A stretch of DNA of 64,000 nucleotides from Methylorubrum sp. B1-46 (GTDB taxonomy: Bacteria > Pseudomonadota > Alphaproteobacteria > Rhizobiales > Beijerinckiaceae). Positions 57,879 through 62,222 of the stretch are shown one piece after another. Made by a program: the position numbers and the translations under genes. The notes beneath the pieces were generated by a model. The model had not been told where the DNA came from, made no database searches, and saw only the letters and a list, made by a program, of their open reading frames with translations. The stretch lies in NCBI RefSeq assembly GCF_021117295.1, contig NZ_CP088247.1, forward strand, positions 1,203,501-1,267,500, read 5' to 3'. Positions within the stretch are counted from its first letter, which is position 1, and each line of letters opens with the position of its first letter.

Positions 57879-58253
57879 GAGTGCCGCACAAAACTCCCGG
57901 TCTCTGACCGTCGTCACTCTGGCTTTGACGACGCAGCGGGCGTTTTGTGAGAGACACCCATACGAGCCGCCTCGCTCGCAACGAACCCGCAAAAAAGGCC
58001 CCGGTGCGCTGGCTGCACCGGGGCCTTTTTTGCGTGCGAGCCATGTCCGGAGCCTCCCTCCGGATGCTGTTCCCCCCTCTCCCCGCAGGCGGAGAAAGGG
58101 GATGCGCTCGATTCCGGATCGACGAACCGGAAAAGGCTTTGCTCGTCTCATACCAAATCCGGCTGATCCCTTCGGGATGGCGGATTTGGCCCTCGCTCAA
58201 GCGCCGCGCGGGCTTGCTGATCCGATCCCCGCTCTGATCAAGCGGACACCGGA
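57879..58253. other. 375-bp gap between typA and the chemoreceptor gene
   Basis: It contains a bidirectional terminator (57991-58031) and the 112-bp repeat copy 1. The two genes converge here. Confidence 0.7.
57991..58031. terminator. Bidirectional rho-independent terminator
   Basis: An 11-bp perfect stem GGCCCCGGTGC/GCACCGGGGCC with a 7-nt loop is flanked by A6 on the left and T6 on the right. It serves typA (plus) and the chemoreceptor (minus). Confidence 0.92.
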
Positions 58254-58258
58254 TCAGG
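58147..58258 (-). repeat. 112-bp repeat B, copy 1, at the stop codon of the chemoreceptor gene
   Basis: Read on the minus strand it starts GCC-TGA-TCCGG, the TGA being the chemoreceptor stop. It ends with a CCAAATCCGCC...GGATTTGG hairpin. It matches 62111-62222 almost base for base. Short open frames within it are not genes. Confidence 0.88.
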
Positions 58259-59942
58259 CCGCCCGGATCGTGTGGAGGAAGTGGCGGACCTGCCCGTCGA
58301 GATGCTCGGACTGGCGCGACAGTTCGGAGGCCGAGGTCAGCACCTGGCTCGCCGCCGCACCGGTCTCCTCGGCGGCGGCCGCGACGCTGGCGACGTTGCC
58401 CGTCACCGCGCCGGTGCCGGCGGACGCCTCGGAGACGTTGCGCACGATTTCCTGGGTCGCCGCCCCCTGCTCCTCGACCGCCGCAGCGATCGATCCGGCC
58501 AGCCCGTCGATCTCGCGGATACGCGCCGCGATGTCGCCGATGGCGTTGACGGCCTGTCCGGTGATGGTCTGGACTTGCCCGATCTGCCCGGAGATCTCGT
58601 CGGTCGCCCGCGCCGTCTGGTTGGCGAGTTCCTTGACCTCGGCGGCGACCACCGCGAAGCCGCGGCCGGCCTCACCGGCGCGGGCCGCCTCGATGGTGGC
58701 GTTGAGCGCGAGCAGGTTGGTCTGCCCGGCGATGGTGGAGATCAGGCCCACCACGTCGCCGATCTTGGCGGCCGCGACGCTCAGATCCTGCACGAGTTGC
58801 GCGGTGCCCTCGGCCTCGACAACGGCCTTCTGCGCCAGCGCGGTCGATCCGGTGACCTGCCGGGCAATTTCCTGCACCGAGGCGCCGAGCTCCTCGGCGG
58901 CCGCGGCGACCGTGCCGACATTGGCCGCAGCCTCTTCCGCGGCGGCTGCGGCGGCGTTCGATTGGGAGGCCGTCTGCGAGGCGGTGCCCTCCATGCTCTG
59001 GGCGGTCGCCTGCAGCTCGGTGGCAGCGGCCGAGACGGTGCCGACGATGCCGCTCACCGCCCGCTCGAAGCTGTCGGCCATCTCGCGCATCGCCGCCTTG
59101 CGCTGCGCCTCGGCGCCGGCCCGTGCCAGTGCGGTCTCCTCCTCCAGGGCACGGGTGCGGATCAGGTTGTCCTTGAACACCTGAACGGCGTTCGCCATCG
59201 CCCCAATCTCTTCGCGGCGCTCACGGAAGGGAAGCTCGACGCTAACATCGCCTTCCGCCAAGCGGCTCATCAACCCGGTCATCCGGCGGATCGGGCGCGC
59301 GACGAAGCCGTTGAGCAGCAGAATGCCGAGGCCGGCGACGAGCAGCAGCGCCGCGAGACCCGCGCCGACGGCGAGGCGGGACGTGCTCGCGGCCTCCTCG
59401 GCGATCCGGGCGCGCGTCGCCAGCAGGGCCGCCTCGGCGCCGGCCATCGCGGCGGCGACCTTGCGCACGGTGTCCATCGCCGTCTTGCCGGCTCCGGATG
59501 CCTCGATCCGGCGTGCCTGTTCCCGGGTCGCCTCGTCGCGCATCAGCGCGATCTCGCGCTCGGCGACGTCGCGGGTCCATTGGCCGGCGGCCGCGTCGAG
59601 AGCGTCGAGTCGGCGCAGTTGCTCGGCATTGTCGGCGACGAGGCTGCGCAGCCGTCCCAGCGTCTCGCCATACGCCTTGGTTCCGGCATGGAACGGTTCG
59701 AGGAAGGCAGGCTCGGCCGAGACGAGATAGCCGCGCAGGCCCGTCTCCCGGTCCACCATGGTGGCCGTCAAACGGTCGAGTTCCAGTAGCACTTGGTAGG
59801 TGTGGTCGCGCCAGCGGTTGGTTTCCTCGATCTTGCCGAGGCTACGCCAACTGATGAACGTGGAGCCGCAGACCGCGAGGATGACCAGCGCGAAGACGAC
59901 GACGAGCTTGGCGACGATGGAGAGATTGGCGATGCCACGCAT
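58254..59942 (-). CDS. Methyl-accepting chemotaxis protein with CHASE3-like sensor
   Basis: The 562-residue receptor has a first helix (9-31), a helical sensor with RETGLRGYLVSAEPAFLEPF (CHASE3), a second helix (182-203), HAMP, and a signalling domain containing IAGQTNLLALNATIEAARAG. It sends signals to CheA; ligand unknown. ATG 59942. No che genes are near. Confidence 0.92.
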   Translation of the reverse strand: MRGIANLSIVAKLVVVFALVILAVCGSTFISWRSLGKIEETNRWRDHTYQVLLELDRLTATMVDRETGLRGYLVSAEPAFLEPFHAGTKAYGETLGRLRSLVADNAEQLRRLDALDAAAGQWTRDVAEREIALMRDEATREQARRIEASGAGKTAMDTVRKVAAAMAGAEAALLATRARIAEEAASTSRLAVGAGLAALLLVAGLGILLLNGFVARPIRRMTGLMSRLAEGDVSVELPFRERREEIGAMANAVQVFKDNLIRTRALEEETALARAGAEAQRKAAMREMADSFERAVSGIVGTVSAAATELQATAQSMEGTASQTASQSNAAAAAAEEAAANVGTVAAAAEELGASVQEIARQVTGSTALAQKAVVEAEGTAQLVQDLSVAAAKIGDVVGLISTIAGQTNLLALNATIEAARAGEAGRGFAVVAAEVKELANQTARATDEISGQIGQVQTITGQAVNAIGDIAARIREIDGLAGSIAAAVEEQGAATQEIVRNVSEASAGTGAVTGNVASVAAAAEETGAAASQVLTSASELSRQSEHLDGQVRHFLHTIRAA

Positions 59943-60316
59943 AACGCTGATCCAAAAGGGCAAATGCGCTACCCGGCGGCAGCGCTTCAACAAATGATGG
60001 CTTTCACGAACCTAAAGTCCCGTTAATCCGGAATGGCACAAGAAAATTGTGCACTCATGCCGCGAAGCGATGGGGCCGAGTTGCCTGATTCGCGCCGATC
60101 ACAGGATCCAGCGATCCCACAAGCACAGGCCGGCGCGAAGGTTGTTTAAGCTGGCAGATTTCGGACAAATGTCTGACTTAAATCGGTTTTTCCTGATCGA
60201 GCAGACGTGGCGGGAATATCTTGCCCGGCAATTCTTGCCCGGCGCATCCAAAAATTAACCCCTCGGTAACCATCCGGGCGGTCAATGGGTGCGTCGGTAA
60301 GGAAACGTCAACGCCC
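59943..60316. other. 374-bp divergent gap between chemoreceptor and minC
   Basis: AT-richer than the genes. TTAAGC...GACTTAA imperfect inverted repeat around 60147-60181. No convincing gene. Promoters for both sides probably lie here. Confidence 0.45.
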
Positions 60317-61003: not shown

Positions 61004-61015
61004 GGGGAAACGAGA

Positions 61016-61831
61016 ATGGCCAAGGTTCTTTGTGTCACGTCCGGTAAGGGCGGCGTCGGCAAGACCACCACGACGGCAGCGCTCGGTGCGGCGCTGGCGC
61101 AGGCCGGCGAGAAGGTCTGCGTGGTCGATTTCGACGTCGGCCTGCGCAACCTCGACCTGATCATGGGCGCCGAGCGCCGCGTGGTCTACGACCTGATCAA
61201 CGTCACCAACGGCGACGCCAAGCTGCCGCAGGCGCTGATCCGCGACAAGCGCCTCGAGAACCTCTCGCTGCTGCCGGCCTCCCAGACCCGCGACAAGGAC
61301 GCGCTCACCGACGAGGGCGTCGAGCGGGTGATGGGCGAGCTTCGCGAGAAGTTCGACTGGATCGTCTGCGACAGCCCCGCCGGCATCGAGCGCGGCGCCC
61401 AGCTCGCCATGCGCCACGCCGACGTCGCCGTGGTGGTGACGAACCCCGAGGTCTCCTCGGTGCGTGACTCGGACCGGATCATCGGCCTGCTCGACTCCAA
61501 GACCGTGCGCGCCGAACGCGGCGACACGATCGAGAAGCACCTGATCCTGACCCGCTTCGACCCGGCCCGCGCCGACCGCGGCGACATGCTCAAGGTCGAC
61601 GACGTGCTCGAGATCCTCTCGATCCCGCTGCTCGCCATCATCCCGGAGAGCCTCGAAGTCCTGCGCGCCTCGAATGTCGGCTGCCCGGTGACGCTCAACA
61701 ACCCGCTCTGCGCCCCCTCTCGCGCCTACATCGACGCCGTGCGCCGCCTGAAGGGCGAGACCGTGCCGATGGCGATCCCGTCCGACCGCAAATCCCTGAT
61801 CAACAAGCTGTTCACACGGAGGGCCGCATGA
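61016..61831 (+). CDS. minD: Septum-site ATPase MinD
   Basis: MinD is a membrane-cycling ATPase that recruits MinC. The 271-residue protein has the deviant Walker A SGKGGVGKTTT, DFDVGLRN, and an amphipathic C-terminal helix (DRKSLINKLFTRRAA) that binds the membrane. Its stop overlaps the minE start (ATGA). Confidence 0.97.
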   Translation: MAKVLCVTSGKGGVGKTTTTAALGAALAQAGEKVCVVDFDVGLRNLDLIMGAERRVVYDLINVTNGDAKLPQALIRDKRLENLSLLPASQTRDKDALTDEGVERVMGELREKFDWIVCDSPAGIERGAQLAMRHADVAVVVTNPEVSSVRDSDRIIGLLDSKTVRAERGDTIEKHLILTRFDPARADRGDMLKVDDVLEILSIPLLAIIPESLEVLRASNVGCPVTLNNPLCAPSRAYIDAVRRLKGETVPMAIPSDRKSLINKLFTRRAA

Positions 61832-62115
61832 GTGTCCTGACCTTCCTCAAGCCGCGCGGCTCCGGTTCGGTCGCCCGCGAACGCCTGCAACTGATCCTCG
61901 CGCACGAGCGCGTGGAGAACGGACGGCCCGACCTGATCATCACCCTGCGCGAGGAGATCCTGAACGTGATCGCCAAGCACGTCACGGTCGAGCGCGACAA
62001 GGTGCAGATCAAGCTGGAGCGGGGCGAAGGCGTCTCGACGCTCGGCGTCGATATCGAATTCCCTGTCGATGCAGTGCTCAAGCCGAAGCCGAAGGCCAAG
62101 CGCGCCATCGCCTGA
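61828..62115 (+). CDS. minE: MinE topological specificity factor
   Basis: MinE drives MinD release and oscillation. The 95-residue protein has the anti-MinCD N-terminus (VLTFLKPR, ARERLQLILAHERV) and the dimer domain (LIITLREEILNVIAKHV). It ends at TGA inside a 112-bp repeat. Confidence 0.96.
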   Translation: MSVLTFLKPRGSGSVARERLQLILAHERVENGRPDLIITLREEILNVIAKHVTVERDKVQIKLERGEGVSTLGVDIEFPVDAVLKPKPKAKRAIA

Positions 62116-62222
62116 TCCGGTCTCCGCTCGATCGAGGCGGGGAGCGTATCAGCCAGCCCGCGCGGCGCTTGAGCGAGGGCCAAATCCGCCATCCCGAAGG
62201 GATCAACCGGATTTGGTATGAG
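62111..62222 (+). repeat. 112-bp repeat B, copy 2, at the stop codon of minE
   Basis: Starts GCC-TGA-TCCGG with the minE stop and continues through GCCCGCGCGGCGCTTGAGCG to the CCAAATCCGCC...GGATTTGG hairpin. Same sense as minE. The copy at 58147 is on the other strand with its own gene. Confidence 0.88.

Follow-up and report, generated by a model that had tools for sequence, protein, structure and literature searches.

The stretch of DNA analysed here, 64,000 nucleotides of Methylorubrum sp. B1-46 (contig NZ_CP088247.1, positions 1,203,501 to 1,267,500; hereafter the window, with the whole genome denoted G000), contains two copies of a palindromic repeat, each of which begins at the TGA stop codon of a gene, minE in one case and a chemoreceptor gene in the other. 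The repeat is, in our judgement, likely a non-coding mobile element which inserts at TGA and leaves a TGA on both of its sides. The two copies, their parts and their host genes are arranged as follows.

62112..62222, + strand: copy A of the element (C-TGA-TCCGG...GGTA-TGA-G), 3' of minE; genome position G000:C1:1265612-1265722
62113..62115, + strand: left TGA of copy A, the stop codon of minE
62219..62221, + strand: right TGA of copy A
62112..62152, + strand: left hairpin of copy A, 41 nt, outer pairs CTGA/TCAG
62180..62216, + strand: right hairpin of copy A (CCAAATCCG...CGGATTTGG, inner ATCCC/GGGAT)
58147..58257, - strand: copy B of the element, 3' of the chemoreceptor gene; genome position G000:C1:1261647-1261757
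58254..58256, - strand: left TGA of copy B, the stop codon of the chemoreceptor gene
58148..58150, - strand: right TGA of copy B
58217..58257, - strand: left hairpin of copy B
58153..58189, - strand: right hairpin of copy B
58254..59942, - strand: chemoreceptor gene (CHASE3-HAMP-MCPsignal), from a codon-usage gene caller and Pfam
61828..62115, + strand: minE, from Pfam
62248..62281, + strand: minE's own terminator-like hairpin with a T run, 3' of copy A, read from the sequence

The first-pass annotation of this DNA had described two copies at the stops of the chemoreceptor gene and minE, lying in the sense of their genes and ending in a strong hairpin. Both were located there, with the TGA in each case an in-frame stop, and their orientation was as described, while each copy folds into two main hairpins. 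Pfam matches between and at the copies comprise CHASE3, HAMP and MCPsignal, MinC_C, a MinD/ParA-type NTPase and MinE. The copies had also been called nearly identical over 112 bp; they do belong to the same family, but at 91.9% identity over 111 bp this wording was slightly strong, and, ranking 11th among the 406 pairs that 29 copies form, they are ordinary family members.

The repeat family is not a product of chance. A covariance model built from 29 copies (29 of 30 loci, L030 being dropped as incomplete) finds 47 places in G000 at E<1e-6, all on contig C1; the last few of these are weak, 150 of 7081 first-look candidates were scored, and the remainder of the 81 inventory rows are weak, a good part of these reflecting the same palindromes read in antisense. 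The mean pairwise identity among the 29 copies is 84%. The repeat measures 111 bp including a flanking C and G, with a unit (TGA-TACGG...GGTA) of 105-106 bp, and its consensus reads C-TGA-TACGGTCTCCGCTTGATCAAAGCGGGGAnCGGATCAG-(linker)-CCAAATCCGCCATCCCGAAGGGATCAACCGGATTTGG-TA-TGA-n. It comprises two unlike hairpins, a left one of 41 nt with the TGA in its stem and a right one of 37 nt, and the ends share only TAC/GTA as an inverted repeat, which does not amount to a real terminal inverted repeat (TIR). The left stem carries compensatory, both-side changes at 8 of 18 pairs, and the right hairpin is near-invariant (97% of cells paired). None of 500 shuffles scored as high as the whole structure, a comparison in which related sequences alone can exceed shuffles. 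Against Rfam, the window gave no match at the gathering score, and copy A chance-level matches only. Two variants were noted in addition: a longer form of 143-149 bp with extra linker sequence that, by eye, is able to pair (L108, L112, L113, L114, L115, L118 and L123), and a copy at L120 (3001-3158) whose left hairpin harbours a further palindromic sequence in its loop.

The element is present in 36 of 59 sampled genomes of the genus, G000 included. When 119 genomes were drawn from across the family and stricter filters applied, 7 gave matches, namely G000, G034, G038, two genomes of another genus, g13 (with 14 and 13 copies), and two in which one weak match was found.

Comparison with relatives shows that the stop codon predates the element in most of the compared cases. 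The stop of minE is TGA in each of the 15 relatives used (of 16 loci, the distant L061 was left out); 14 of these are element-free, and only M. aminovorans (L047) carries the element there. All five full-length orthologues of the chemoreceptor gene (out of seven loci with matches) are element-free, with TGA as the stop in four and TAG in one. A third comparison used the genome of a close relative, G005, whose identity to the window is 91-93% along a single 6-kb segment; 45 of the 47 G000 sites were queried, and 26 of the 43 resulting rows were used, the 17 dropped rows consisting of 4 matches to other flank repeats and 13 without a locus, at least two of which are possibly true orthologues. 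Among the 18 matched stop sites in G005, 16 lack the element (15 with TGA, 1 with TAA) and two hold remnants, one of them with TAA. Of the eight non-stop sites, two are clean pairs (L157 and L164), in which the empty site has one CTGA and the filled site TGA on both sides; two have a TGA (L148, L169), and L158 holds a remnant. The reverse situation is found within the window itself:

18671..18673, + strand: empty site, the TGA stop of the open reading frame 16853-18673 (presumably a translational GTPase, LepA-like by its look); G005 carries the element at this stop (L139)

Since element-free orthologues end in TGA at the same codon, the element preserves the stop. The earlier proposal that it supplies the stop codon of its host genes holds insofar as the left TGA is the stop, but in most of the compared cases the stop is not new, as TGA stands at the element-free site in 14 of 14 cases for minE, 4 of 5 for the chemoreceptor gene and 15 of 16 in G005. 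With the stop present first and TGA kept at both ends, the element would thus enter at (C)TGA, and of the two options that the first-pass annotation had offered, targeting of a TGATCC site and selection for a place in mRNA 3' ends, it is targeting, of a TGA site, that fits better. The idea that insertion converts the base before TGA to C was rejected, as the differences between filled and empty sites run both ways.

The other option was that of a 3' untranslated region element kept by selection, whose hairpins stabilise or end the mRNA of the host gene. Its sense orientation, its place directly after the stop, its strong hairpins, the compensatory changes in the left stem and the near-absence from divergent gaps (of the 42 copies that have a left TGA, 41 lie in convergent or same-direction ones) would all suit such a role. 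However, 14 of 15 minE orthologues, 5 of 5 chemoreceptor orthologues and 16 of 18 stop sites in G005 lack the element at that place, the host proteins of 79 copies at stops fall into 76 clusters, and minE retains its own terminator-like hairpin. The latter is missing from the output of the terminator scan, its loop being longer than the scan permits, and a similar hairpin was read from the sequence at the element-free Leaf123 locus L046. The scan listed no intrinsic terminator inside copies A and B, and a T run is missing after the right hairpin, which is followed by TATGAG. Given the lack of a T run, the hairpin of minE and an occupancy that differs between near relatives, a conserved mRNA role is quite unlikely as the main cause, and selection for a place in mRNA 3' ends is not supported as that cause; an incidental effect at the mRNA 3' end may exist.

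The same relatives bear on the suggestion that the inverted copies A and B, at 92% identity, could flip the 4-kb segment between them. In the five relatives with full orthologues of both genes (L046, L047, L048, L049 and L053), strands and spacing match those of the window; four of them have neither copy at these sites, and L047 has only that at minE. The suggestion is thus unsupported, and we regard such an inversion as extremely improbable.

The coupling to stop codons extends well beyond the window. In G000, 28 of the 47 copies have a left TGA that ends the same-sense gene lying upstream; in one further copy (L124), a gene ends elsewhere within the first 60 nt. Among the 42 copies with an intact left TGA, 28 lie at stops, whereas 19% would be expected (p 1e-11) for insertions on any non-coding TGA, weighted by the observed preference for the preceding base. 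Of 46 places in other genomes, 31 coincide with stops (32 of 47 rows, as one place was listed twice), and the same holds for 26 of 39 loci in four genomes (G028 13/15, G031 1/4, G035 7/13, G070 5/7), five of these 39 places overlapping the set of 46. When distinct copies are pooled, 79 of 121 are at stops, and their host proteins form 76 clusters of which the largest has size 2. The pooled set covers 23 genomes plus three named records and includes three units of one tandem array; G000 counts for 37 copies in it, as partial and long variants from the inventory of 47 (28 at stops) fail the coverage filter. The expectation in the first-pass annotation that copies across the genome would start at stops and keep the sense of the gene is thereby borne out, and extends to other genomes.

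Such a share of stop codons could in principle arise wholly from selection, if any CTGA were hit and insertions directly after a stop survived best. In keeping with this, the 42 copies are distributed over 20 convergent gaps, 21 same-direction gaps and 1 divergent gap, where 18, 51 and 30% would be expected, and the preferred bases flanking the target are themselves common at stops. On the other hand, stops are over-used even inside the safe gaps, at 14 of 20 copies in convergent gaps (expected 0.39) and 14 of 21 in same-direction gaps (expected 0.29). With divergent gaps left out, the motif-weighted expectation at stops is 28% for the motif of the non-stop copies and 48% for that of all copies, which favours stops by construction; the background was drawn from G000 loci only. 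Against the 48% expectation, the observed shares are 66 of 95 (p 1.4e-5), 28 of 42 in G000 (p 0.010) and 13 of 15 in G028 (p 0.002). As they exceed even the most generous motif expectation, some extra pull to stops remains, and we consider selection as the sole cause quite possible but not probable.

Further indications come from the ends of the element and their orientation. In the pooled set, a left TGA is present in 115 of 121 copies and a right TGA in 99, and C precedes the left TGA in 80 of 115. As pairs, 95 copies have TGA/TGA, 4 have TGA/TCA and none TCA/TCA; there is no TCA on the left. Away from stops, the flanking bases (29 copies) point to G at -3 and C at +3 and to the absence of G at -2, and the symmetry of the target is weak, with flank pairing above that of shuffles only at -1/+1 and -4/+4, and there slightly. 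A scan of the 59 genomes revealed the reverse right end (TCA) at 10 places in 4 genomes, three of which are among the four TGA/TCA copies. In 6 of the 10 places, the TCA is the called stop of a convergent gene, so that reverse insertions at stops do occur; L265 and L274 are partial copies, and the gene at L265 has a low score. Where the left end of reverse copies is readable, 7 of 8 (six from the scan and L255) show TGA/TCA and one, L268, shows TCA/TCA. Element-free sites were sought for four reverse copies (9 candidates scored per genome); no orthologue was found, and the other matches belonged to a second repeat family.

These ends bear on a further class, the classical miniature inverted-repeat transposable element (MITE), in which a DDE transposase would move the element and duplicate 3 bp of target, TGA. 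TGA on both sides in 95 of 121 copies, clean empty sites with one TGA and the TCA/TCA ends of L268 agree with it. However, terminal inverted repeats are lacking apart from TAC/GTA, the orientation relative to the target is nearly fixed in the pooled set, and a 3-bp duplication predicts TCA/TCA in reverse copies, of which 7 of 8 readable ones are TGA/TCA. An element of this class is, in our view, unlikely, and the balance of the reverse copies favours, though not firmly, a shared TGA core over staggered-cut duplication.

Traces of movement are visible in two genomes. In G028, the copies L229, L230 and L232 are identical over the inner ~104 nt and lie at three different stops, which suggests recent movement. 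In G011, contig C9 (L240, about 2000-2526) bears a tandem array of five head-to-tail copies, the last four of them identical, with a 105-bp period and one TGA per unit. Such an array would fit a circular or concatemeric form, and ordinary tandem amplification can also give it. Partial forms were noted as well, namely tandem partial units without a left hairpin at L269 (G035) and a lone right hairpin at L265 (G005).

As the identical copies in G028 lie at three stops, a mover should have been present there recently; none of the Y1, Y2 or IS110 transposases was found in G028, a draft of about 150 contigs. Matches to the Y1 transposase (PF01797) were found in only 5 of the 59 genus genomes (G015, G017, G043, G048 and G050), and not in the element-rich G000, G005, G028, G031, G035, G016 and G058. 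The Y2 transposase (PF04986) was found in 3 of 10 element-bearing genomes (G050, G016 and G070) and not in G000, G005, G028, G031, G035, G011 and G038, and the IS110 transposase (PF02371) in 7 of 10, being missing from G028, G031 and G038, which are drafts of 80-200 contigs. In a search of the fetched loci for an autonomous parent, more widely spaced ends not being systematically sought, 53 left or right ends stood alone, with no partner inside 200 nt. Most coincide with known copies, being antisense echoes or damaged copies; the exceptions are a lone right hairpin at L068 (818-853) and L211 (195-237), a known damaged copy. A REP-type repeat moved by a RAYT or IS200-IS605 Y1 transposase would share hairpin ends, the lack of a real TIR and a near-fixed left target with the element, a likeness of form only, and three of the five Y1-bearing genomes (G015, G048 and G050) also have element matches, while G017 and G043 have none. 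Given the distribution of PF01797 across the genus, however, we regard this origin as very unlikely. As the three transposase classes fail to account for all element-rich genomes, the search for the mover becomes a defined task.

In kind, the element appears akin to REP-, BIME- and CIR-type repeats. Alphaproteobacterial two-hairpin repeats of similar size include RIME and Bru-RS. The closest parallel in stop-codon usage is that of the GTAG and CGTC REPs, which lie mostly in convergent and same-direction gaps near gene 3' ends, and whose GTAG termini often provide a TAG stop to flanking open reading frames (PMC3733652). They thus resemble the element as interspersed palindromes by gene 3' ends that provide stops. 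In contrast, the element is 105-106 bp long with two unlike hairpins and TGA as its end triplet, most element-bearing genomes have no Y1 gene, and its element-free orthologues show an earlier stop; within the terminal 12 nt, only 1 of 29 copies has GTAG/CTAC, and 2 have CGTC/GACG. Since the REPs already provide TAG stops, what is new here is another element, another triplet, the absence of Y1 from most genomes, and the stop as a target that is kept. The non-autonomous elements of IS200/IS605 type share the form, with hairpins near both ends, no TIR and insertion 3' of a fixed short target, but a Y1 gene is missing from most genomes with the element. CIR repeats of Caulobacter and Brucella, described as intergenic and built of two long inverted repeats and a linker (PMC2229807), have two hairpins with a linker in common with the element, a likeness by description; GANTC, the marker of CIR, occurs in 9 of 29 copies and is absent from the consensus.

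Small mobile repeats of other kinds are more distant. QMITE2 is small, non-coding and hairpin-forming, and located mainly in 3' untranslated regions or between genes, with variable direct repeats of 7-11 nt and long TIRs (PMC5896051); the element is similarly small and non-coding with hairpins at 3' untranslated regions, but has TGA and no real TIR. YPAL/RU-2 and ERIC are small mobile repeats as well; the mobility of YPAL was argued from empty and filled sites, and its duplications range from 3 to 26 bp (PMC2229807). Both differ from the element in their duplications, and the accessible portion of that source describes no stop-codon preference for them. The ~400-bp MITE reported for M. extorquens (PMC2680597) is a different element. 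Searches of open-licence PMC papers brought up neither this element nor the targeting of TGA stops.

Taken together, we propose that the element would insert at TGA, with a preference for a preceding C and weaker preferences further out, and would leave TGA on both sides, so that a stop codon serving as target keeps its protein unchanged. The two TGAs may arise as the single TGA of the mobile form exchanges with the target TGA as a shared core, without staggered-cut duplication. A trans-acting recombinase or transposase, probably not of the Y1, Y2 or IS110 kind, would move the element. Insertions within genes and before promoters would be purged by selection, explaining part of the stop-codon share, and any effect on the mRNA 3' end would be a by-product. 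That a recombinase acts by exchange at the shared TGA core (element junction GTA-TGA-TAC, target roughly GYC-TGA-GRC, both near-symmetric about the G), with a draw to stops beyond motif and selection, and that the element spreads in this way gene by gene without protein change, is put forward tentatively as a somewhat unlikely conjunction.

Several points weigh against this proposal. The ends of L268 are those expected of staggered-cut duplication, and the reverse copies thus disagree on the mode of exchange. Two of the 18 stop sites in G005 have TAA, three of its eight non-stop sites (L149, L162 and L165) have no TGA at the point of insertion, and single clean sites could reflect precise loss rather than gain. 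Gene ends were called by codon usage, with a home-made program trained on the loci in place of curated annotation. Beyond G000, copies were taken by highest score (15 candidates were scored in each genus genome) and do not form a random sample, and the coupling is weaker in some genomes of the pooled set (G031 2/5, G005 7/15, G035 7/13). Furthermore, no mobiliser was found and transposition was not seen.

A second palindromic family (ends CTAGAGCATC...GATGCTCTAG) was encountered in the window at 4456-4554 and 32362-32460, near 1432 of L049, and at L195-L224. Of 30 fetched copies, 5 begin at an in-frame TAG stop, one more at TAA and one at TGA; in M. rhodesianum, the TAG that ends the same chemoreceptor gene also bears a copy. 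Possibly, this family has the same habit with another stop triplet. Elsewhere in the window, the gene at 53560-54306 (- strand) overlaps an inverted repeat (I1, 304 nt, 72%) shared with the MinC C-terminal region at 60679-60982, and is perhaps a second MinC-type gene; a 300-nt direct repeat of 85% identity occupies 37070-37369 and 38453-38752.

Palindromic repeats crowd at the 3' ends of genes, and RNA function is a frequent explanation for this, argued for example in PMC3733652. The element described here has the look of a hitch-hiker with a peculiar choice of landing site, more than of a component made for the genes it follows, and a stop codon that is preserved as a landing site would offer a simple, neutral and checkable explanation for such crowding.

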